Shown: positions 6,885-60,546 of the stretch, in pieces
Layout: each line of letters begins with the position of its first letter
Numbering within the stretch: position 1 is the stretch's first letter
Notes under the pieces: model-generated
Seen by the model: the letters and a program-made list of their open reading frames with translations, nothing else
The model's database searches: none
What the model was told of the DNA's origin: nothing
Origin: Methyloversatilis sp.
GTDB lineage: Bacteria > Pseudomonadota > Gammaproteobacteria > Burkholderiales > Rhodocyclaceae
Assembly: GCA_016791045.1 (NCBI GenBank)
Contig: JAEUNO010000010.1
Coordinates: 1 to 64,000 of the forward strand
Length of the DNA stretch: 64,000 nt
Direction of reading: 5' to 3'
Position numbers and translations under genes: made by a program

Positions 6885-7631
6885 TCAGGCGTCCTGCGTC
6901 GCCTTGTTGCGCTCGGGTGACGCCTTGATGAAGCGAGAGAACAGGATGCCGATCTCGTACAGCAGGCACAGCGGAATCGCGAGCAGCAATTGCGACACCA
7001 CATCCGGCGGTGTGACGATGGCCGCCACGACGAAAGCTCCGACGATCACATAGGGCCGTGCTTCCTTGAGTTGCGCAATCGTCACCAGTCCGAAACGTAC
7101 CAGCACGATGACCACGATCGGTACCTCGAAGGTGACGCCGAAGGCGGTGAACATGGTCAGCACGAAGGACAGGTACTGCTCGATGTCCGGTGCCGGCGTG
7201 ATGCTTTTCGGCGCAAATTCCGCGATGAAGCTGAACACGACGCCAAAGACGAGGAAGTAGCAGAACGCCATGCCGGTGATGAACAGCAGCGTGCTGGCAA
7301 TGATCAGCGGCAGGCCGAGGCGCTTTTCGTGTGCATACAGACCGGGTGCGATGAAGGCCCATACCTGGTAGAGCACGACCGGCAACGAAATCAGGAAGGC
7401 CAGCATCAGCGTCACCTTCACCGGCACGAAGAACGGTGTCACGACGCCGGTGGCGATCATCTTCGTCCCCTCCGGCAGCGCCACCATCAGCGGATGGGCA
7501 AGGATGTCGTAGATGTCCGCCGCCCACGGCATCAGGCAGACGAATACGACGACCACCGCGATGACGGCGCGCAGCAGCCGGTCGCGCAATTCGACCAGAT
7601 GGGATACGAAGCTTTCGGTCTGTTCGTTCAT
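6885..7631 (-). CDS. tatC: Sec-independent protein translocase TatC
   Basis: TatC (248 aa, normal length) is the six-helix receptor that recognises twin-arginine signal peptides and forms the TatBC complex. The N-terminus MNEQTESFVSHLVELRDRLL carries the conserved HLxELRxR motif before helix 1, and six hydrophobic segments can be counted. It is the last gene of tatA-tatB-tatC, placed after the his genes and hinT as is common in betaproteobacteria. Likely clients in this window include the twin-arginine protein at 54.4 kb. Confidence 0.96.
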   Translation of the reverse strand: MNEQTESFVSHLVELRDRLLRAVIAVVVVFVCLMPWAADIYDILAHPLMVALPEGTKMIATGVVTPFFVPVKVTLMLAFLISLPVVLYQVWAFIAPGLYAHEKRLGLPLIIASTLLFITGMAFCYFLVFGVVFSFIAEFAPKSITPAPDIEQYLSFVLTMFTAFGVTFEVPIVVIVLVRFGLVTIAQLKEARPYVIVGAFVVAAIVTPPDVVSQLLLAIPLCLLYEIGILFSRFIKASPERNKATQDA

Positions 7632-52341: not shown

Positions 52342-54147
52342 ATGAGCACACTGACTGTAAAAATCCCCGACATCGGCGACTTCAAGGACGTGCCGATCAT
52401 CGAAATCATGGTCAAGCCCGGCGACACGGTGGAGGCGGACGCGCCGCTGATGTCGCTCGAGTCAGACAAGGCCACGATGGACATCCCCGCACCGCAAGCC
52501 GGCCGCATCGTCGAATTGAAGGTGAAGGTCGGCGACCGCGTGTCCGAAGGCAGCGTCGTGCTGACGATGGAGGCGGCGGTGTCCGCTGCAACCGCACCTG
52601 CGGGCGCAAGCCCTGTGGCAGTGGCTCCTGCTGCAGCCGCCCCGGTGGGCGCAGCGTCCGCGCCGCGATCGGTCGCCGAACCTGCCCCGGCCACCGGCCG
52701 CGCACCGGCCAGGGTCGATGAAAGCTGCGCCGTACTGGTGATCGGCGGTGGCCCCGGCGGCTATTCGGCGGCCTTCCGCGCCGCCGACCTCGGATTGGAT
52801 GTGATCATCGTCGAGCGCTACGCCACGCTGGGCGGCGTCTGCCTGAACGTGGGCTGCATCCCGTCCAAGGCGCTGCTGCACGTCGCGGCGGTGGCCGACG
52901 AGGCCGCAGCGCTGGCCGCACACGGCATCAAGTTCGGCGCGCGCGAAGTGGACCTCGGCGCCCTGCGCGGCTGGAAGGACAAGGTGGTCGGCAAACTGAC
53001 CGGCGGTCTGTCCGGCATGGCCAAGGCACGCAAGGTGAAGGTGGTGCGCGGCACGGCGCGATTTGTCGATCCGCAGCATGTCGAGGTCGCCCTCACCTCC
53101 GGCGACGGCAGGGCGGAAACCGGCGAGAAGTCGGTGCTGAAGTTCGGCCACTGCATCGTCGCCGCCGGCAGCCAGGCGGTGAAACTGCCCTTCATGCCGG
53201 ACGATCCGCGCGTCGTCGATTCGACCGGCGCGCTGCTGCTGGCCGACATTCCGAAGCGCATGCTGGTGATCGGCGGCGGCATCATCGGCCTGGAAATGGC
53301 TACCGTGTATTCGACGCTGGGCGCCCGCATCGACGTGGTCGAAATGACCGGCGGCCTGATGCAGGGCGCCGACCGCGATCTGGCCAAGGTGTGGGAGAAG
53401 AAGAACGCCCAACGCTTCGACGCCGTCATGCTGAACACGCGGGTGACCGGCGCCGAGGCGACGGCGGAGGGCATCAAGGTGAGCTTCGAGGGCGCGAAGG
53501 CGCCGGCGGAGGCGCAGATCTACGATCGCGTGCTGGTCGCGGTCGGCCGCTCGCCGAACGGACGCAGGCTGAACGCCGAGGCCGCCGGCCTGCGCGTGGA
53601 CGAGCGCGGCTTCATCCCGGTCGACAGCCAGATGCGCAGCAACGTGGCGCACATCCACGCCATCGGCGACATCGTCGGCCAGCCCATGCTGGCCCACAAG
53701 GCGGTGCACGAAGGCCACGTCGCGGCGGAAGTCATCGCCGGCCACAAGCGTCATTTCGACGCCACGGTGATTCCGTCGGTGGCCTACACCGACCCCGAAG
53801 TCGCCTGGGTCGGACTGACCGAGGACGAGGCCAAGGCACAGGGCCGCAAGGTGACCGTCGGCAAGTTTCCGTGGGCAGCCAGCGGACGGGCCATCGCCAA
53901 CGGTCGCGACGAGGGCTTCACCAAGTTGATTTTCGACGCGGACAGCGGTCGCATCGCGGGCGGCGGCATCGTCGGCGTATCGGCCGGCGACATGATCGGA
54001 GAGATCGCGCTCGCGATCGAAATGGGCGCCGACGCGGTGGACATCGGCCACACGATCCATCCGCACCCGACGCTGGGGGAATCCATCGGGCTGGCGGCTG
54101 AAGTGGCGGAGGGAAGCTGCACCGATTTGCCCAGATCGACCCGATGA
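52342..54147 (+). CDS. lpdA: Dihydrolipoamide dehydrogenase with N-terminal lipoyl domain (PDH E3)
   Basis: This 601-aa E3 flavoprotein reoxidises dihydrolipoamide. The N-terminal 80 residues form a lipoyl domain nearly identical to that of AceF (K43 in ESDKATMD). After an Ala/Pro linker comes the FAD domain (VIGGGPGGYSAAFRAADLG), the redox disulfide C167/C172 in GVCLNVGCIPSK, the NAD site VIGGGIIGLEMATVYSTLG and the catalytic His in HTIHPHPTLGES. Lipoyl-E3 fusions are typical of betaproteobacterial PDH operons. It starts ten bases after aceF. Confidence 0.96.
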   Translation: MSTLTVKIPDIGDFKDVPIIEIMVKPGDTVEADAPLMSLESDKATMDIPAPQAGRIVELKVKVGDRVSEGSVVLTMEAAVSAATAPAGASPVAVAPAAAAPVGAASAPRSVAEPAPATGRAPARVDESCAVLVIGGGPGGYSAAFRAADLGLDVIIVERYATLGGVCLNVGCIPSKALLHVAAVADEAAALAAHGIKFGAREVDLGALRGWKDKVVGKLTGGLSGMAKARKVKVVRGTARFVDPQHVEVALTSGDGRAETGEKSVLKFGHCIVAAGSQAVKLPFMPDDPRVVDSTGALLLADIPKRMLVIGGGIIGLEMATVYSTLGARIDVVEMTGGLMQGADRDLAKVWEKKNAQRFDAVMLNTRVTGAEATAEGIKVSFEGAKAPAEAQIYDRVLVAVGRSPNGRRLNAEAAGLRVDERGFIPVDSQMRSNVAHIHAIGDIVGQPMLAHKAVHEGHVAAEVIAGHKRHFDATVIPSVAYTDPEVAWVGLTEDEAKAQGRKVTVGKFPWAASGRAIANGRDEGFTKLIFDADSGRIAGGGIVGVSAGDMIGEIALAIEMGADAVDIGHTIHPHPTLGESIGLAAEVAEGSCTDLPRSTR

Positions 54148-54249
54148 CCGCGCAGCACACTTGTCGACTTTTCTTACAAAAACCGGGGAAAAAGGAACGG
54201 AGATTAAATTAACCGCTTAAAAACATGGTGTTGAAAAACCGCCGTTTGA
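54148..54249. other. AT-richer spacer downstream of lpdA
   Basis: This short non-coding stretch is much richer in A/T than its surroundings (runs such as TTACAAAAA and GATTAAATTAA). It begins the region of different composition that holds the cassette at 54.4-57.3 kb. No terminator with a clear stem is visible for lpdA. Confidence 0.35.
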
Positions 54250-54265
54250 AGGCCTGTTTCTTGCA
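54250..54265 (+). promoter_or_regulatory. Sigma-54 (RpoN) promoter candidate
   Basis: The sequence aGGCCTGtttcTTGCa matches the consensus TGGCAYRNNNNTTGCW at ten of twelve defined positions, with the essential GG and GC exactly ten bases apart. Transcription would start near 54276, about 100 bases before the start codon of the twin-arginine protein. An inverted repeat GGTATC-tgctc-GATACC (54267-54283) overlaps the expected start point. Confidence 0.55.
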
Positions 54266-54378
54266 TGGTATCTGCTCGATACCGTCGCGTGACGTGATCA
54301 CCTCCACAGGCATCAGCCCTGTATTTGGCGATAGACTCCGGCACGCATGGCGGTTACAACATATTGGGCAACGGACAA

Positions 54379-55155
54379 ATGGAAAATAATTCGGAAATCG
54401 ATCGCACTCGCGAGGCTTCGTTACCGACACCACAGGAAACGGCACTGCGCCGCAGCCTGCTCAAGGCCGGATTCGGTGTGGGCGGCGTGCTGATGGCGCG
54501 GCAGGCGAAATCCACGTTCGAAACACCCTATCAATGCACGCTGTCCGGCCAGATGTCGGGCAACGTAAGCCGGAACGATGGAACGACACCGAACTGCAAG
54601 ATCGGGTTGTCACCCGGCTACTGGCAACAGTGCAGTCGCTTCACCACCGACTGGAAAGTCACGGCCCCGAAGATCTGCAAAAAAGTTAATGGCAGTTGGA
54701 GGGTCTACACGAGGACAAATCCTCCGAAGTTCTCCGAGATAACGAACACTGAATTGTTTAAAGTTTCCGGTACGGTAATGGTCAGCGGCTCACCGGTTGA
54801 ATGCACGCTCGGTGCAACATTGGCTTCCGTGTTGGGTACTGCTGTCGGTCTGACCGGCATACCTGGTTTGGCTGATGGCAGTTCGCGCCAAGTGTCTCTT
54901 TGGGAGCTGGTCGCCTACGGCGAAGACCAAACCGCCTTTCCGCAACAGATCGGACAGTTCGCCCGCCACATAGCCGCCGGGGTATTGAACGCTAAGGCCT
55001 ACCCGGGAACATACCCGATCACGATCCCCCAGCTTCGCGCGATCTGGGATGCAATCACAGGTGGCGGAACGAGCACCTCGGGTGAGTACGAGTTGATGGG
55101 AACAGGGCTCGATTTTGGCGAAATCCAGGATTACCTGAACACTACGTGGAATTGA
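54379..55155 (+). CDS. Twin-arginine-signal protein of unknown function, HPr-rel-A-type cassette
   Basis: This 258-aa protein is not recognised as a known family. Near the N-terminus it has ETALRRSLLKAGFGVGGVLM, an RR-x-L-L-K pattern plus hydrophobic stretch that fits a Tat signal. The mature part contains four cysteines early on (YQCTLSG, PNCKIGLSPGYWQQC) and WKVTAPKICKKVNG. The C-terminal half has an ordered region with YGEDQTAFPQQIGQFARHIA. The ATG at 54379 is chosen over one 18 codons upstream to keep the Tat motif near the start. Codon use and base composition are visibly more A/T-rich than the neighbours, a sign of transfer. It lies at the head of a kinase/nucleotidyltransferase cassette and may be its substrate. 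Confidence 0.6.
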   Translation: MENNSEIDRTREASLPTPQETALRRSLLKAGFGVGGVLMARQAKSTFETPYQCTLSGQMSGNVSRNDGTTPNCKIGLSPGYWQQCSRFTTDWKVTAPKICKKVNGSWRVYTRTNPPKFSEITNTELFKVSGTVMVSGSPVECTLGATLASVLGTAVGLTGIPGLADGSSRQVSLWELVAYGEDQTAFPQQIGQFARHIAAGVLNAKAYPGTYPITIPQLRAIWDAITGGGTSTSGEYELMGTGLDFGEIQDYLNTTWN

Positions 55156-55292
55156 GCGACAACCCGCCTTGTCGGGTCGAGTTCATCGAGACCGAAGGAT
55201 TGCTTGTGGCCCGGTTTGCCGACGAGACGGAAGCCGTGGTCTACGACGCGGCGCATTGCACACTCGCTGTCGTGGAAGTGCTGCAGCAGTAA
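55146..55292 (+). CDS. Possible short PqqD-like protein (may be truncated)
   Basis: A 48-codon frame starts with GTG at 55146, overlapping the end of the previous gene, and ends at TAA 55290. Its segment LVARFADETEAVVYDAAH followed by LAVVEVLQQ resembles the core of PqqD-like peptide chaperones (beta strands then a helix). It is shorter than the usual 70-90 residues of HPr-rel-A PqqD proteins, so it could be truncated or frameshifted. The next 66 bases before the kinase reading frame are not clearly coding. Confidence 0.35.
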   Translation: MELSDNPPCRVEFIETEGLLVARFADETEAVVYDAAHCTLAVVEVLQQ

Positions 55293-55400
55293 GCAGCTGG
55301 CGTCACAAGCCGTTAAGCTGCGCGGACCGACCATCTATCCGCGCAGCAGGTTGTTCCCCTGAAACACTCCCAGATCAGAATCGGAAGCTTTTCGGTACGC

Positions 55401-56231
55401 GTGCAGTGCGATGTGCCTGCGTTCTGGCGTGCTTTCGACTTTTTTTATGCGGACAACCCGCCTGAGCCGGCCGACGGGTTTTGCGATTTCTCCGTACGGC
55501 TGGTCACGCCGGGACTTATCCGCAGACCGATCCATCCGCAGATCACATTCGATCTCGATGGCGTGCGTCCATTCAAGCCACTGCCGGAACACCAGGCCTT
55601 TCCGCTTTTCGAGTGGGGTCTCAACTGGTGCATCGCGATGCATATGCATCGTTGCGTACTGATACATGCCGCGGTCGTCGAGCGCAACGGCTTCGCGCTC
55701 ATCCTTCCCGCACCGCCGGGTTCCGGCAAAAGCACGCTGTGCGCCGGCCTGACTGCGCGCGGCTGGCGGCTGCTCTCCGATGAGCTCGCGATGATCACTC
55801 CGGACACCCTCGAACTGATTCCATTTCCGCGCCCGATCAGCCTGAAGAACCGGTCGATCGACGTCATGCGCGACTATGCGGGCGGCGATGTCATCGGGCC
55901 TGTTTTTGCCGATACCCACAAGGGCGATGTGGCGCACATGAAGGTGCCGTCTTCTGCACTCGCGAACACCCTCATCAGGGCGCGTCCCGGCTGGATCGCG
56001 TTTCCGAAGTACCGGGCGGGTAGCACCTTGCGTCTGTCACCGATAACCCGTGCGCGCACCGTGCTTGCGCTTGCCGACAACTCGTTCAACAGTGATCGTC
56101 TCGGCGAGCAGGCCTTCCGCACGCTGTCGAGCACCGCAGCCGCAAGCGGATGTTTCGAGTTCGAGTACAGCATGCTCGACGAAGCGATAGCCTGCTTCGA
56201 TGCGCTGGCCGACATGCGCGCGTCGCGATGA
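55401..56231 (+). CDS. HPr-kinase-related ATPase (HprK-related kinase A)
   Basis: This 276-aa P-loop protein resembles the C-terminal half of HPr kinase/phosphorylase. Walker A is PPGSGKST (about 105-112), the following acidic motif is LLSDELAMI (D127, E128), and VLIHAAVVER lies just before. Family-like blocks include FKPLPEHQAFPLFEWGLNWC. The conserved N-terminal strand IRIGSFSVRV is encoded upstream of the first normal start codon (GTG 55401), in frame back to a CTG at 55359, so translation probably starts there or by an unusual start. It overlaps the next gene by four bases (ATGA). The target of phosphorylation is unknown; no HPr gene is nearby. Confidence 0.8.
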   Translation: MQCDVPAFWRAFDFFYADNPPEPADGFCDFSVRLVTPGLIRRPIHPQITFDLDGVRPFKPLPEHQAFPLFEWGLNWCIAMHMHRCVLIHAAVVERNGFALILPAPPGSGKSTLCAGLTARGWRLLSDELAMITPDTLELIPFPRPISLKNRSIDVMRDYAGGDVIGPVFADTHKGDVAHMKVPSSALANTLIRARPGWIAFPKYRAGSTLRLSPITRARTVLALADNSFNSDRLGEQAFRTLSSTAAASGCFEFEYSMLDEAIACFDALADMRASR

Positions 56232-57343
56232 CCCCGGAAAGGCTGCCGCTCTGCACGTTGCTGGTGACCCCTGCACGGGCGGCCGACATGTCCTTGCGGG
56301 ATTGGGAGACCGTCATCGTGCAAGCTAGAAAATCCAAGTTGCTCGGGCTTCTGCATCACGTCCTTTCCGTCAGCGGACATGCGCATCAAGTACCGGAACG
56401 GGTGTGGCACCACCTCGCCTCGGCCGCGCAACTGGTGGCGGAGCAGCATCTGTCGCTGGGCCATGAAATCCGTCAGATACTGGACGCACTGAAATCCGTC
56501 GATGGCCGGATTGTGGTGCTGAAGGGGGGCGCATACGTCATGCGCGGTCTCGCGGCCGGTCATGGCCGGACCTTTTCCGACATCGATATCCTGGTGCCCC
56601 GCGAAAGACTTGGGGAAGTCGAAGCGCGGCTCATGGTGGATGGTTGGGTCAGCCAGCATCGTGACGCCTACGACCAGCGTTACTATCGGCAATGGATGCA
56701 TGAGATTCCGCCGATGTCCCACATCCGTCGCGGCACCACGCTCGATATCCATCACGCGCTGACGCCGCTGACATCCCGCATTCGTGCTGATTCGTCGGCG
56801 ATGCTCGCGGCAGCCGAACCGCTGCCATCGGACAACCGGCTGATGACGCTCTCACCTCAGGACATGGTGCTGCACAGCGCGACACACCTGTTTCTCGAGA
56901 GCGAGTTTCACAGCGGGTTGCGTGATCTTTTCGACCTCTACTCGCTGGTCACCGAGTTCCGCAGCCGCGACGCCTGCTTCGATCAGAAGCTCCTTGCGCG
57001 CGCAGCCGGTGTCGGCCTGACGCGCCCCCTCTTTCTTGCCTTCCGATACCTGCATCGGATCCTGGCGCTCGACATTCCGACCCACACGGCATCCGAACTG
57101 CAGCGCGTGGCCCCGAACCCGCTGCATCTGAAGGTACTGGACACGCTATTCACCCGCGCACTGTCGCCCCATCACGAGAGCGCCATGGATGCCCTGACAC
57201 CCGTCAGCCTGTTCCTGCTGTATCTGCGCGGCCACTGGCTGCGTATGCCGATCCATCTGCTGGTCGTCCATCTGAGCCGCAAAGCCGTCATGAAACTGAC
57301 AAAAAAGACCGATAATGATGACGAATCCGAAACGGCAAGATGA
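56228..57343 (+). CDS. Nucleotidyltransferase family protein (cassette partner)
   Basis: This 371-aa protein is of the uncharacterised nucleotidyltransferase family found beside HprK-like kinases. The catalytic region has VLKGGAYVMRGL (KGG at about 99-101) and the metal-binding FSDIDILVPRE (D118 and D120). A C-terminal helical part contains QDMVLHSATHLF and LRDLFDLYSLV. The ATG overlaps the kinase stop. It may nucleotidylate a protein or peptide encoded in the same cassette. Confidence 0.8.
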   Translation: MTPERLPLCTLLVTPARAADMSLRDWETVIVQARKSKLLGLLHHVLSVSGHAHQVPERVWHHLASAAQLVAEQHLSLGHEIRQILDALKSVDGRIVVLKGGAYVMRGLAAGHGRTFSDIDILVPRERLGEVEARLMVDGWVSQHRDAYDQRYYRQWMHEIPPMSHIRRGTTLDIHHALTPLTSRIRADSSAMLAAAEPLPSDNRLMTLSPQDMVLHSATHLFLESEFHSGLRDLFDLYSLVTEFRSRDACFDQKLLARAAGVGLTRPLFLAFRYLHRILALDIPTHTASELQRVAPNPLHLKVLDTLFTRALSPHHESAMDALTPVSLFLLYLRGHWLRMPIHLLVVHLSRKAVMKLTKKTDNDDESETAR

Positions 57344-57346
57344 GCG

Positions 57347-58018
57347 ATGAACAGTGATGACCTGAAGAAAGCCGTGGCCCGTTCGGCACTGGCCCACGTG
57401 GTGCCGGGCGAACTGCTCGGTGTCGGCACCGGTTCGACCGCCAATCATTTCATCGACCTGCTGGCATCCGAGGGCTTGAAGATCGCTGGCGCGATCGCCA
57501 GTTCGGAGGCCTCGGCGGCCCGGCTGCGCGGTCACGGCATTACCGTGCTGACGCTGGACGAGGCGATCACTTCCGGTCGGCGCATCCCGGTCTATATCGA
57601 CGGTGCGGACGAGATCGATCCCGGGCTTCACCTGATCAAGGGGGGCGGCGGCGCGCTGACGCGCGAGAAGATCGTGGCCGCGGCATCCGACTGTTTCGTG
57701 TGCATCGCCGATGCGTCGAAGTGCGTCGATGTGATGGGGCGCTTCCCGCTGCCCGTCGAAGTGATTCCGATGGCGGTTGCGCTGGTGTCGCGGGAACTGC
57801 TGCGGCTGGGCGGTGTGCCGAAGGTGCGCGAAGGCTTCGTGACCGACAATGGCAATCTGATCATCGACGTCGCCGGACTGTCCATCACGGATCCGGTCGC
57901 GCTGGAAACCGAACTGGACCATCTGACAGGCACCGTGACCAACGGCCTGTTCGCCCGTCGCCGCGCCGACATTGCGCTGATATCCTCGGCCAATGGCGTG
58001 CAGACACTGCGCGGCTGA
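57347..58018 (+). CDS. rpiA: Ribose-5-phosphate isomerase A
   Basis: RpiA (223 aa) interconverts ribose-5-phosphate and ribulose-5-phosphate. Motifs [35 protein letters not shown] and the catalytic Glu in [11 protein letters not shown] are present. The start [18 protein letters not shown] is three bases past the nucleotidyltransferase stop, so read-through from the cassette is possible. Composition is back to genome average. Confidence 0.96.
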
Positions 58019-58072
58019 ACACTCTGGTGCAGACGCAGTCTCACCTCACACCACCTTCCGGAACGCATTGAC

Positions 58073-58774
58073 ATGAGCGAGCACATTTCCAAGCGCTATG
58101 ACCACGAACTGGAAGGCCTGCGCACGGGCTTGCTGCAGATGGGCGGCCTGATCGAACAGCAGATCGAACACGCGATGCGCGGCGTGATCGAGCGCAACCT
58201 GCCGCTGCTCGAAGAAGTCATCGCCACCGAAAAGAAGGTGAATGCGATGGAGATCGAACTGGATGAAGCGTGCAATCAGCTGATTGCCAAGCGTCAACCG
58301 GCTGCGAGCGACCTGCGGGTGATCATGTCGATGGTCAAGACCATCACCGATCTGGAGCGCGTCGGCGACGAAGCGAAGAAGATCGCCAAGATGGGCCGGC
58401 ACATTCTCGAATCCGACGCCATCTTCGTGCCGCGTGTCGAGCTGCGCCACGCCGCGTCGATGGCGGTCGACATGCTGCGCCGCACGCTGGACGCGCTGGC
58501 CCGCCAGGATCTGGCGAGCGCCACCGAAGTCGTGCGCCAGGACAAGGAGGTCGACGCCGAATTCAAATCCATCATGCGCCAGCTCATCACCTTCATGATG
58601 GAAGATCCGCGGACGATTTCCTGCGGTCTGGACATGCTGTTCATCGCCAAGGCGATCGAGCGTATCGGCGACCACTCCAAGAACATGGCGCAATACGTGG
58701 TGTTCATGGTCAAGGGGACCGACGTGCGACATGCCGGGCTGGCTGCCATGGAGGCCGCAGCGGCAGCAGACTGA
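58073..58774 (+). CDS. phoU: Phosphate signalling protein PhoU
   Basis: PhoU (233 aa) is the helical negative regulator of the PhoR/PhoB system and of Pst uptake. Two PhoU repeats each with a metal-binding motif are visible (ITDLERVGDEAKKIAK and AKAIERIGDHSKNMAQ). It is alone here, without pst or phoBR genes. A weak terminator candidate follows. Confidence 0.95.
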   Translation: MSEHISKRYDHELEGLRTGLLQMGGLIEQQIEHAMRGVIERNLPLLEEVIATEKKVNAMEIELDEACNQLIAKRQPAASDLRVIMSMVKTITDLERVGDEAKKIAKMGRHILESDAIFVPRVELRHAASMAVDMLRRTLDALARQDLASATEVVRQDKEVDAEFKSIMRQLITFMMEDPRTISCGLDMLFIAKAIERIGDHSKNMAQYVVFMVKGTDVRHAGLAAMEAAAAAD

Positions 58775-58796
58775 GGCTTTTTCCGTTTGCCTGCAC

Positions 58797-58837
58797 GGCC
58801 CGCGCACCCTGATTGCCGTGTGACGGGCCAGCCCTTT
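58797..58837 (+). terminator. Possible phoU terminator
   Basis: A GGCCCG/CGGGCC stem extended by five more pairs across a one-base bulge (58797-58829) is followed by AGCCCTTTT. The bulge and short T-run make it only a moderate candidate. Confidence 0.35.
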
Positions 58838-58959
58838 TGCGTCCACGCAACGGCAAAACCCGCTGCCGGTCAACCTAGGCTGTTCGGCTGGGTGTAAATC
58901 CGCCGCAAACCCTCTAAACTCCGCCAGATACAAGAACTTAAGATGGACGGGGGTCGTCA

Positions 58960-60546
58960 GTGTCGATTGTCAGGGCGGGACTTGCATTCGCGGTAGCGGG
59001 CGGGGCCATTCTCGCATCGGCGAACCTGCATGCGGAAGAATCCGCTGACGGTCCGCGATTCGAGGTCAGAAGCTATGCGGTTGCCGGCGGCTCGGTATTC
59101 CGGCCACCGGAAATCGATGCACTCCTGACGCCCTATGTCGGCAAGGCGGTCGGATTTGCCGAGATCGAAGCGGCCCGCACTGCGTTGCAGACCGCTTACC
59201 ACCAGCGCGGCTTCGGTGCGGCGCAGGTCACCATCCCCGAACAGGAACTGAGCAGCGGCACGGTCACGCTCGAGGTGCTTGAGCCCAAGCTCGAAGCGCT
59301 GACGCTGCAGGGCGCACGCCACCACGACGACGAGAACATCCGGCGCAGCCTGCCCGCCCTGGCGGAAGGCAGCATGCCCAATACTGAAGCCGTCGCGCAC
59401 CAGTTGGCGCTGGCCAACGAGAACGCGTCGAAGCAGACCGACGTGACGTTCCGCTCGGCGCGCAAACCGGGCGAAATCGCCGCAACCGTTTCGGTCACGG
59501 ACAGCAATCCGCTGCGCCGGTTCGTGACCGTCGACAACAGCGGCACACCGTCCACCGGCACGCACCGCATTTCGGTCGGCCTGCAGCACAACAACCTGTT
59601 CAACCGCGACCACGTCGCAACGCTGCAATACACGACCTCGATCGAACAGCCGTCCGACGTGACCATCGTCGGTCTCGGTTATCGCATTCCGCTGTACGAA
59701 AGTGGCAACTCCATCGATCTGGTCGGCGGATTTTCCAGCGTCAGTTCAGGTCAGGTGCAGGTGCTGAATTCGACCGCGACCGTGTCGGGCAGCGGTCGCA
59801 TCTTTTCCGCGCGCCACAACTGGCATCTGCCGCGCATCGGCGAATTGTCCCAGCGCATCAGCCTGGCCGCCGACTGGCGCGATTTCGACAGCAGCTTCCT
59901 GCTCGACAACACGCCAGGCAACCTCGTGCCGCGCGTCATCACGCACCCGATTTCCCTCTCGTGGAGCGGCAACTGGCGCGGCGATACGCGGGAAGCTGGC
60001 GTGCAGATCAGCGTCGCGCGCAACCTGCAGGGCGGCGAGCATGGTCGAGACACAGACTTTAACGCTCTGCGTGCGGGCGCCAATGCGCGCTTCGCAGTCA
60101 TGCGCGCCAGCGCCTCGTGGTTCCAGTTGTTGCCGCGTGACTGGCGCGTGCGGCTGCAGGCGCAGGGTCAGTACACACGCGACGAGCTGGTGTCCGGCGA
60201 ACAGTTCGGCATCGGCGGAGCCGAGTCTGTGCGCGGCTTGCGTGAGCGCGTACTGGCCAACGACCGCGGCTGGCGGGTCAGCGCCGACCTCGACACACCG
60301 GCCTGGACTGAAGACATCTGGGTCATGCGAGGCGTGCTGTTCGGCGACGTTGCACATCTTTACAGAGTCAATCCGCTGCCGGGGGAAACTGCAGGGGATG
60401 GCGTGCTCTCGGCCGGCGTGGGCCTGCGCGTCAACTATTCCACATGGCTCTCGGGACGGATCGACTACGCTCGCCTGATCGACGGCGCAGACCGTTACGC
60501 GTCCGGCAGTCACCGGGTTCACGCGTCGTTCAGCCTGAGTTTCTAG
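58960..60546 (+). CDS. TpsB outer-membrane transporter (ShlB/FhaC family)
   Basis: This 528-aa two-partner-secretion transporter has a signal peptide (about 1-25, ending LHAEES), a POTRA_2 domain (RFEVRSYAVAGGSVFRPPEI) and a ShlB-type second POTRA. A 16-strand beta barrel follows, ending in phenylalanine (HASFSLSF). The loop L6 motif is SVRGLRER near residue 421, the VRG(Y/L) signature of the Omp85 superfamily. The GTG start is at 58960. It exports the TpsA protein encoded 164 bases downstream. Confidence 0.93.
   Translation: MSIVRAGLAFAVAGGAILASANLHAEESADGPRFEVRSYAVAGGSVFRPPEIDALLTPYVGKAVGFAEIEAARTALQTAYHQRGFGAAQVTIPEQELSSGTVTLEVLEPKLEALTLQGARHHDDENIRRSLPALAEGSMPNTEAVAHQLALANENASKQTDVTFRSARKPGEIAATVSVTDSNPLRRFVTVDNSGTPSTGTHRISVGLQHNNLFNRDHVATLQYTTSIEQPSDVTIVGLGYRIPLYESGNSIDLVGGFSSVSSGQVQVLNSTATVSGSGRIFSARHNWHLPRIGELSQRISLAADWRDFDSSFLLDNTPGNLVPRVITHPISLSWSGNWRGDTREAGVQISVARNLQGGEHGRDTDFNALRAGANARFAVMRASASWFQLLPRDWRVRLQAQGQYTRDELVSGEQFGIGGAESVRGLRERVLANDRGWRVSADLDTPAWTEDIWVMRGVLFGDVAHLYRVNPLPGETAGDGVLSAGVGLRVNYSTWLSGRIDYARLIDGADRYASGSHRVHASFSLSF

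Follow-up and report, generated by a model that had tools for sequence, protein, structure and literature searches.

A kinase and nucleotidyltransferase cassette of Methyloversatilis and its proposed substrate, a twin-arginine leader protein with a conserved Cys/Ser motif

In a 64,000-nucleotide stretch of DNA from Methyloversatilis sp. (assembly GCA_016791045.1, contig JAEUNO010000010.1, positions 1 to 64,000 of the forward strand; hereafter the window), four plus-strand genes at 54379-57343 encode a 258-aa protein with a twin-arginine leader, a 48-codon frame, an HprK-related kinase A and a nucleotidyltransferase. The locus raises the question of what the two enzymes act on. We propose that the product of the cassette is one exported matrix-type protein, which its enzymes modify, a reading built on sequence comparison and analogy that we consider probable as a whole. 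The association of the enzymes with this protein and with a Cys/Ser motif inside it is firm, and by analogy with known kinases of this type a Ser of that motif is quite probably phosphorylated by the kinase.

The cassette is a real gene set. In the open reading frame (ORF) list of the window, the four frames follow one another with overlaps: the stop of the gene for the 258-aa protein (54379..55155) is overlapped by the GTG frame (55146..55292), and the kinase gene (55359..56231) shares the 4 bases ATGA with the nucleotidyltransferase gene (56228..57343), in agreement with the packing reported in a preliminary description of the locus. The third gene product matches HprK-related kinase A (TIGR04352) with 359.7 bits against a cut-off of 200, over 55371-56207 and model positions 2-280 of 280, and the closest named kinase, 95% identical, comes from a Methyloversatilis bin. 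The fourth gene product, of 371 aa, is an NTP_transf_5 nucleotidyltransferase (PF14907, 173.8 bits, cut-off 31.2, E 6.2e-51). Both names had been given in the preliminary description and are borne out by the profile matches. The kinase domain residues H99, G117, G119, K120, D137, E138 and K184 are invariant in 57/57 kinases, as are D118, D120 and D173, among others, in 56/56 nucleotidyltransferases, and judging from these alignments both enzymes look catalytically intact. Translation of the kinase probably begins at the CTG at 55359, the first in-frame ATG, GTG or TTG being the GTG at 55401. In the window and in the related loci L041 and L033, no in-frame codon ahead of the conserved kinase domain other than this CTG, which follows AGCAGG or a similar sequence, is a plausible start; in the L038 kinase an upstream GTG is present as well.

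Could the kinase be an HprK-type metabolic regulator acting on HPr or on another phosphotransferase system protein? A distant relationship exists, with 15.2 bits to the HprK model TIGR00679 and PDB matches to HprK cores at E ~1e-3, next to weaker P-loop matches and nothing closer. The HprK score lies, however, far under its cut-off of 240, and the linkage is to the twin-arginine protein, the PqqD slot (the position of the second gene) and the nucleotidyltransferase, so that we regard this explanation as most improbable; the kinase as a catabolite regulator was rejected on the same HprK score. The nucleotidyltransferase had no match at E<=1 among PDB structures.

The distribution of the enzymes was followed in three genome sets, relatives (81), class (274) and phylum (398), some genomes belonging to more than one set. 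A kinase over cut-off was found in 31/81 genomes of the relatives set, including 13/13 of the genus, in 27/274 of the class set and in 61/398 of the phylum set. The nucleotidyltransferase accompanies it in the window and in 30/30 other above-cut-off loci of the relatives set, and in 25/26 fetched loci of the class set, on the opposite strand in L079, L081, L086 and L088; the sole class-set locus without it, L085, stops 150 bases past the kinase match. A kinase that never sits beside the other genes, the case named in the preliminary description as speaking against a functional set, is therefore not what these loci contain. Outside this group, HprK-like kinases under the TIGR04352 cut-off in L089 and L090 also have short peptides with a twin-arginine leader as neighbours (frames of 91 and 108 aa), a hint that such systems form a wider family.

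Which protein accompanies the enzymes? The 258-aa protein, our proposed substrate class A, carries its twin arginine at R24 R25 (54448..54453). At E<=1 it matches nothing in Pfam or NCBIfam; the preliminary description, too, had called it unrecognised. No scanned substrate reaches a curated cut-off in the result tables of the family scans (41 class A sequences against both libraries, 16 class B and 5 class C against NCBIfam, and 7 class B/C against Pfam; classes B and C are introduced below). The weak matches comprise one or two members each, with a best E of 0.0013, and two of them are Tat-signal families (Tat, twin-arginine translocation). A protein with a twin-arginine leader is encoded at all 31 kinase loci of the relatives set; 26 of these proteins belong to class A, and 5 have another body and a similar leader (L048, L051, L055, L057 and L060). 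The L055 copy lies downstream of the nucleotidyltransferase. The twin arginine is invariant in 26/26 homologues, and in 41/41 in another numbering, for which starts ahead of it had been chosen. Among 77 profile-found ORFs, where no start selection was applied, it occurs within 70 residues before the Cys/Ser motif in 72; two mechanical tests for the twin arginine each pass 72/77, and the failing loci differ. TatC is present over cut-off in the window (6957-7607, minus strand). Behind the hydrophobic stretch of its leader the window protein reads RQAKSTFETPY, where many relatives read ALA or VLG. It ends GEIQDYLNTTWN and lacks the PEP-CTERM tail (P-E-P, hydrophobic stretch, basic tail). The idea that a leader Thr (position 40) was lost together with PqqD was dropped, because 16/124 sequences have no T or S there and several of these keep PqqD.

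Class A lies upstream of the kinase in 77/80 named loci (E<=0.01), a collection gathered by the kinase profile and hence biased to kinases like that of the window. The misses are L160 and L169, with less than 750 bases upstream, and L121; in L165 a gap of 1.2 kb separates the end of the class A protein from the kinase, and the L164 locus starts inside the class A gene, leaving a fragment. Class A profile matches were found in 29/274 class genomes, and 21/23 leader-bearing matches adjoin an above-cut-off kinase. This count includes G187, in which the match begins behind the leader and the ORF has the twin arginine, and leaves out G137, where the kinase next to a weak leader match has a class B-type peptide of 74 aa as its substrate. 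The two others are G264, adjoining a below-cut-off kinase, and G138, a weak match in a genome without an above-cut-off kinase. The remaining class-set kinase genomes have a class B-type protein (L070, L079, L081, L086, L088) or a kinase at a contig edge (L084). Five of the 29 matches cover the body only (model 74-188), in other proteins away from the kinase, which have, as far as their ORFs read, neither a twin-arginine leader nor a Cys/Ser ladder before the module; the ladder thus follows the kinase and not the body module. In L095 and L251-L254, larger proteins of extracellular type share the class A body through a module of the C-x-[PA]-[GS]-[YF]-W type, placed C-terminally or close to the C-terminus, without the class A leader or Ser ladder.

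The proposed modification site is the motif C53-x2-S56-x3-S60-x3-S64 (54535..54570). Among 124 distinct class A sequences, C53 is kept in 122, S56 in 117 (Thr in 3 more), S60 in 119 (Thr in 2 more) and S64 in 110, and all four residues stand together in 107. In structure models, most of residues 70-185 of class A have a predicted local distance difference test (pLDDT) score >90, and the motif region falls below the body (pLDDT ~43-54 in the model of the window protein and ~56-67 in that of L087), as for a flexible tail.

The motif returns in substrates with other bodies. From 48 kinase genomes of the phylum set we examined 49 loci (29 short loci and 20 longer stretches); in 42 of them the strand of the kinase also encodes a twin-arginine protein or a class A match. 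At or close to their C-terminus, class B proteins read [ST]-C-W-x-S-[FLI], with C171, W172 and S174 invariant in 16 aligned sequences, and class C proteins end GFTC[FY]ASLQ (5 aligned sequences, 8 loci; motif form GFTCFASLQMPR). Profile-profile comparison gave a probability of 96.3% over 37 columns for A-B, 77.0% over 31 for A-C and 44.7% over 40 for B-C; since all three alignments are confined to the leader, or to the leader and a few residues, the class bodies are not alignable here. A Cys-x2/3-Ser element is nevertheless common to all three, behind the leader in A and C-terminal in B and C, which makes S56 the best candidate Ser. The pattern C..S[FLIVM] was found in the last 60 residues of 35/41 non-class-A substrates, several of them close relatives and so not independent, against a mean of 1.1 and a maximum of 6 in 2000 shuffles. 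L206 and L207 had been counted with wrong ORFs; the right ones end GFTCFASLQMPRG, giving a corrected 37/41. Left out of the 41 were 7 phylum-set loci without a twin-arginine protein and 11 matching the class A profile at 1e-8, among them L225, whose end, SCWGSFN, puts it by eye in class B.

The class B profile matched 39/61 kinase genomes and 0/337 others among the 398 phylum genomes (Fisher 1e-38, kinship uncorrected); the 39 include partial, mostly leader, matches in G063, G466, G519, G605 and G638. The kinase is the neighbour of 33 of the 40 class B matches, and the other 7 are on separate contigs; action of the enzymes in trans is therefore possible. Wide occurrence of the 258-aa protein without the kinase, which the preliminary description had named as contrary evidence, is absent from both the class A and the class B counts. 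Its proposal that the set modifies the Tat-exported product is strengthened, because the Cys/Ser motif is common to substrates with different bodies, and can be narrowed to one putative site. Some neighbours of these classes may be recorded here. Several class C loci (L207, L208, L211, L214) have ORFs ~2-4.4 kb downstream of the kinase that we take to resemble glmU, in some glmS (UDP-GlcNAc synthesis); as all these loci are of one family, shared descent may account for them. In L060, an ORF at -3262 to -1118 of the kinase, directly upstream of the class B-type substrate, resembles an asparagine synthase gene.

The same data allow another account, in which the twin-arginine protein is a companion matrix protein whose motif serves folding, disulfide formation or anchoring, and the enzymes have as their target a small molecule or a glycan to which the protein binds later. 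The near-constant C53 occurs with a second Cys, C73, kept in 116/124 class A sequences, as expected of a disulfide, and some kinase-free proteins of extracellular type likewise contain the class A body module. These kinase-free module proteins, five in number, lack the Ser ladder, however, and three classes alignable over the leader only all keep C-x(2,3)-S beside the kinase. PqqD-type proteins are, moreover, precursor-binding elements in pathways for ribosomally synthesised and post-translationally modified peptides (RiPPs), according to the sources cited below. We therefore consider the companion account unlikely. A lanthionine-like crosslink, formed when phospho-Ser is eliminated to dehydroalanine and captured by the Cys at a distance of three residues, would fit the constant C-x-x-S spacing of classes B and C, but no lyase or cyclase was found among the scanned flanking genes (lpdA, rpiA, phoU and the TpsB-type gene), and three substrates with the Ser retained have Ala in place of the Cys; such a crosslink appears very unlikely.

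The second gene is the part of the preliminary description that stood only halfway. As a coding sequence it is a true gene under selection: the 48-codon frame (55146..55292) and a shared TAA are kept in four Methyloversatilis-group genomes, where pN/pS (the ratio of nonsynonymous to synonymous polymorphism) is 0.15 in frame and 2.0 and 1.0 in the other two frames. Its slot is also that of a PqqD protein, since a recognisable PqqD-like ORF occupies it in 128/136 related loci (from overlapping sets, a few genomes being counted twice). The TIGR04353 cut-off (35 bits) is reached in 15/81 genomes of the relatives set. The PqqD-like nature of the frame itself did not find the same support. Against a profile of 14 relatives' PqqD it scores 3.5 bits (E ~1), with 3/200 shuffles higher, a weak resemblance. 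The 8 loci without PqqD in the slot are the window relatives L032, L033, L038, L041 and L097 (L097 and L038 being one genome), together with L051, L055 and L121. In L032 the slot frame is longer, 67 aa; its profile score is no better than that of the window gene, and a refined profile misses it. The case for homology lies in the slot, the overlap with the substrate gene and this longer L032 frame. The PqqD label is thus right for the system and unproven for the window copy, which appears eroded. In L055, a PqqD-like ORF (by eye) follows the twin-arginine substrate at +2388 to +3231 of the kinase, downstream of the nucleotidyltransferase.

When would the cassette be expressed? Upstream of the first gene lies a sigma-54 (-24/-12) site, AGGCCTGTTTCTTGCA (54250..54265, plus strand), which scores 19.2 of 23.7 with a GG-N10-GC matrix, 46/1000 shuffles being as good. 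Its GG and GC are kept in the window and three close relatives, and a site at p<=0.05 occurs in 38/57 class A upstreams, the 57 being those of the 77 class A loci for which a usable start and 200 or more upstream bases were available. The promoter candidate of the preliminary description is thereby upheld. A shared box, TGTCG-N6-TTTACA, precedes the sigma-54 site; in the window it is TGTCGACTTTTCTTACA (54162..54178, plus strand; 10/11 consensus positions), with a spacer of 71 nt, within the tested range of 32-92 nt. In Haft 2006 (PMC1569441), a motif 1 ending TTTACA, a spacer of mean 62.8 nt (standard deviation 10.6) and a sigma-54 motif are described upstream of PEP-CTERM genes, with PrsR as their probable activator. 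The exact form TGTCG-N6-YTTACA has 19 matches in the window's own genome and 1 for the reversed control. Of 17 other fetched sites, 12 (L234-L240, L244, L246-L248, L250) stand before an ORF whose end was judged by eye to be a PEP-CTERM tail, five are undecided by eye (L241, L242, L243, L245, L249), and the remaining site, at 52356 on the minus strand, lies inside the lpdA coding sequence. Box and sigma-54 site stand at the right spacing in 41/73 class A loci with enough upstream sequence, where shuffles predict 0.2. PrsR (TIGR02915 over cut-off) is present in 26/27 kinase genomes and 47/247 others (Fisher 5e-16, kinship uncorrected), the kinase genome without it being 75% complete, and the window's own genome has PrsR and two exosortases. 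Judged by sequence, the PEP-CTERM regulon includes most of the tested beta/gamma cassettes, and class B/C cassettes are wired otherwise. This regulon link is new here and was absent from the preliminary description.

The regulon bears on the nature of the product. Precursor and modification might be as we propose and the product a secreted signal or antimicrobial peptide instead of a matrix protein. RiPP-like logic and a few very short substrates speak for such a peptide: that of L079 is a 74-aa peptide ending AGSACISCNASLI, and that of L203 has 82 aa. Most substrates, however, have ~130-280 aa, the class A model has a body with pLDDT >90, and the beta/gamma cassettes are linked to the PEP-CTERM box and PrsR; we judge a signal or antimicrobial peptide rather improbable, and a matrix role of the product fairly likely for the beta/gamma cassettes. 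The L079 precursor (-723 to -490 of the kinase), the smallest substrate seen, has little besides GSACISCNASLI behind its leader.

Several observations weigh against a modified, Tat-exported matrix protein as we read it. The window leader has no clear A-x-A cleavage site, and L121 has the kinase and the full flank and no class A substrate. In 7/49 phylum-set loci no twin-arginine protein lies on the kinase strand; four of these genomes have a class B match on another contig (one of the leader part only), G477 has one beside the kinase on the other strand, and L212 and L216 are unexplained. The class B-type substrates of L055, L057 and L070 have Ala for Cys, and the L219 substrate has no Cys/Ser motif. 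The second gene has no PqqD family match in Pfam or NCBIfam, and its own genome has no TIGR04353 match at E<=1. The PEP-CTERM box precedes only 1/31 class B/C cassettes. Finally, related genomes are not independent and the sets overlap, so that the Fisher values overstate the association, and the genome-wide searches scored few first-look candidates per genome, so that absences are not absolute.

Taken with these reservations, the cassette would work as follows. PrsR and sigma-54 would turn it on together with PEP-CTERM genes, the motifs being observed and the expression predicted. The PqqD protein, of 48 residues in this clade, may present the precursor in the cytoplasm, where the HprK-type kinase would phosphorylate a motif Ser, for which S56 is the best candidate. 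The NTP_transf_5 enzyme might then add a sugar or nucleotidyl group to the Ser or its phosphate, as pseudomycoidin would suggest; that it extends the phosphorylated Ser seems to us an evenly balanced proposition. Tat carries folded proteins, and an ATP-dependent modification in the cytoplasm can therefore precede export. The decorated, folded protein would leave through Tat and join the extracellular matrix. More speculatively, there might be a general Gram-negative decoration pathway in which HprK-related kinase A phosphorylates any protein with this leader and C-x(2,3)-S, and a phosphodiester-linked sugar, built on the Ser by the NTP_transf_5 enzyme, couples the exported protein to exopolysaccharide, in beta/gamma genomes as partner of the exosortase pathway in the floc or biofilm matrix; we hold this to be a long shot.

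An orphan enzyme set would in this way gain a proposed substrate and a predicted modified residue. If the proposal is right, tailoring by kinase and nucleotidyltransferase extends from small lasso peptides to full-size exported proteins. The PEP-CTERM/exosortase regulon would gain tail-less, probably covalently modified proteins; in Aquincola, an RpoN-controlled PEP-CTERM gene is involved in floc formation according to PMC9850573.

Around the cassette, the scan of 52342-60546 against Pfam and NCBIfam placed lpdA before it and rpiA, phoU and a TpsB-type gene after it, and the housekeeping genes lpdA, rpiA and phoU surround it in 12/12 other fetched genomes of the genus. The TpsB-type gene (58960-60546, after phoU) is for an outer membrane transporter of the TpsB/FhaC type, and four fetched genus loci (L033, L038, L041, L042) retain it.

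A literature search, with many subscription papers and all preprints outside its coverage, returned nothing mentioning HPr-rel-A, HprK-related kinase, TIGR04352 or PF14907, and no paper joining Methyloversatilis with PEP-CTERM; as far as we found, the substrate, the Cys/Ser motif and the regulon of HPr-rel-A are undescribed. On PqqD with HPr kinase and nucleotidyltransferase the search returned three lasso-peptide papers, and a wider search listed nothing evidently relevant. We take the lasso nucleotidyltransferases to belong to PF14907. According to PMC9266682 and PMC8498205, HPr-kinase homologues act on lasso precursors by phosphorylating their C-terminal Ser, the pseudomycoidin nucleotidyltransferase adds one or two hexoses to the phosphate and, with PMC7533575, PqqD-type B1 proteins bind leaders. 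The tailoring of paeninodin and pseudomycoidin thus resembles our system in joining an HPr-kinase homologue, a nucleotidyltransferase and a PqqD-type element with a precursor Ser, in our case a predicted target. Unlike in lasso clusters, the scanned flanking genes include no lasso cyclase or leader peptidase, the precursor has a Tat leader and a length of mostly ~130-280 aa, and the class A Ser stands behind the leader and not at the C-terminus. The NCBIfam HPr-rel-A set, in which we presume the nucleotidyltransferase to have a role, is matched by a kinase well over the TIGR04352 cut-off, a PF14907 neighbour and a PqqD slot, and differs in that its PqqD (TIGR04353) is eroded in this clade. SynChlorMet ScmC (31.5 bits, cut-off 125) and HprK-related kinase B (22.1 bits, cut-off 200) are weakly alike in the kinase core, under their cut-offs. 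With the PEP-CTERM/exosortase regulon of PMC1569441 the cassette shares a 17-nt box with the end TTACA, for which the paper gives TTTACA, a spacer of 71 nt close to the published mean of 62.8 and a sigma-54 site, whereas its protein, unlike PEP-CTERM proteins, has no such tail and carries a leader of the Tat type.

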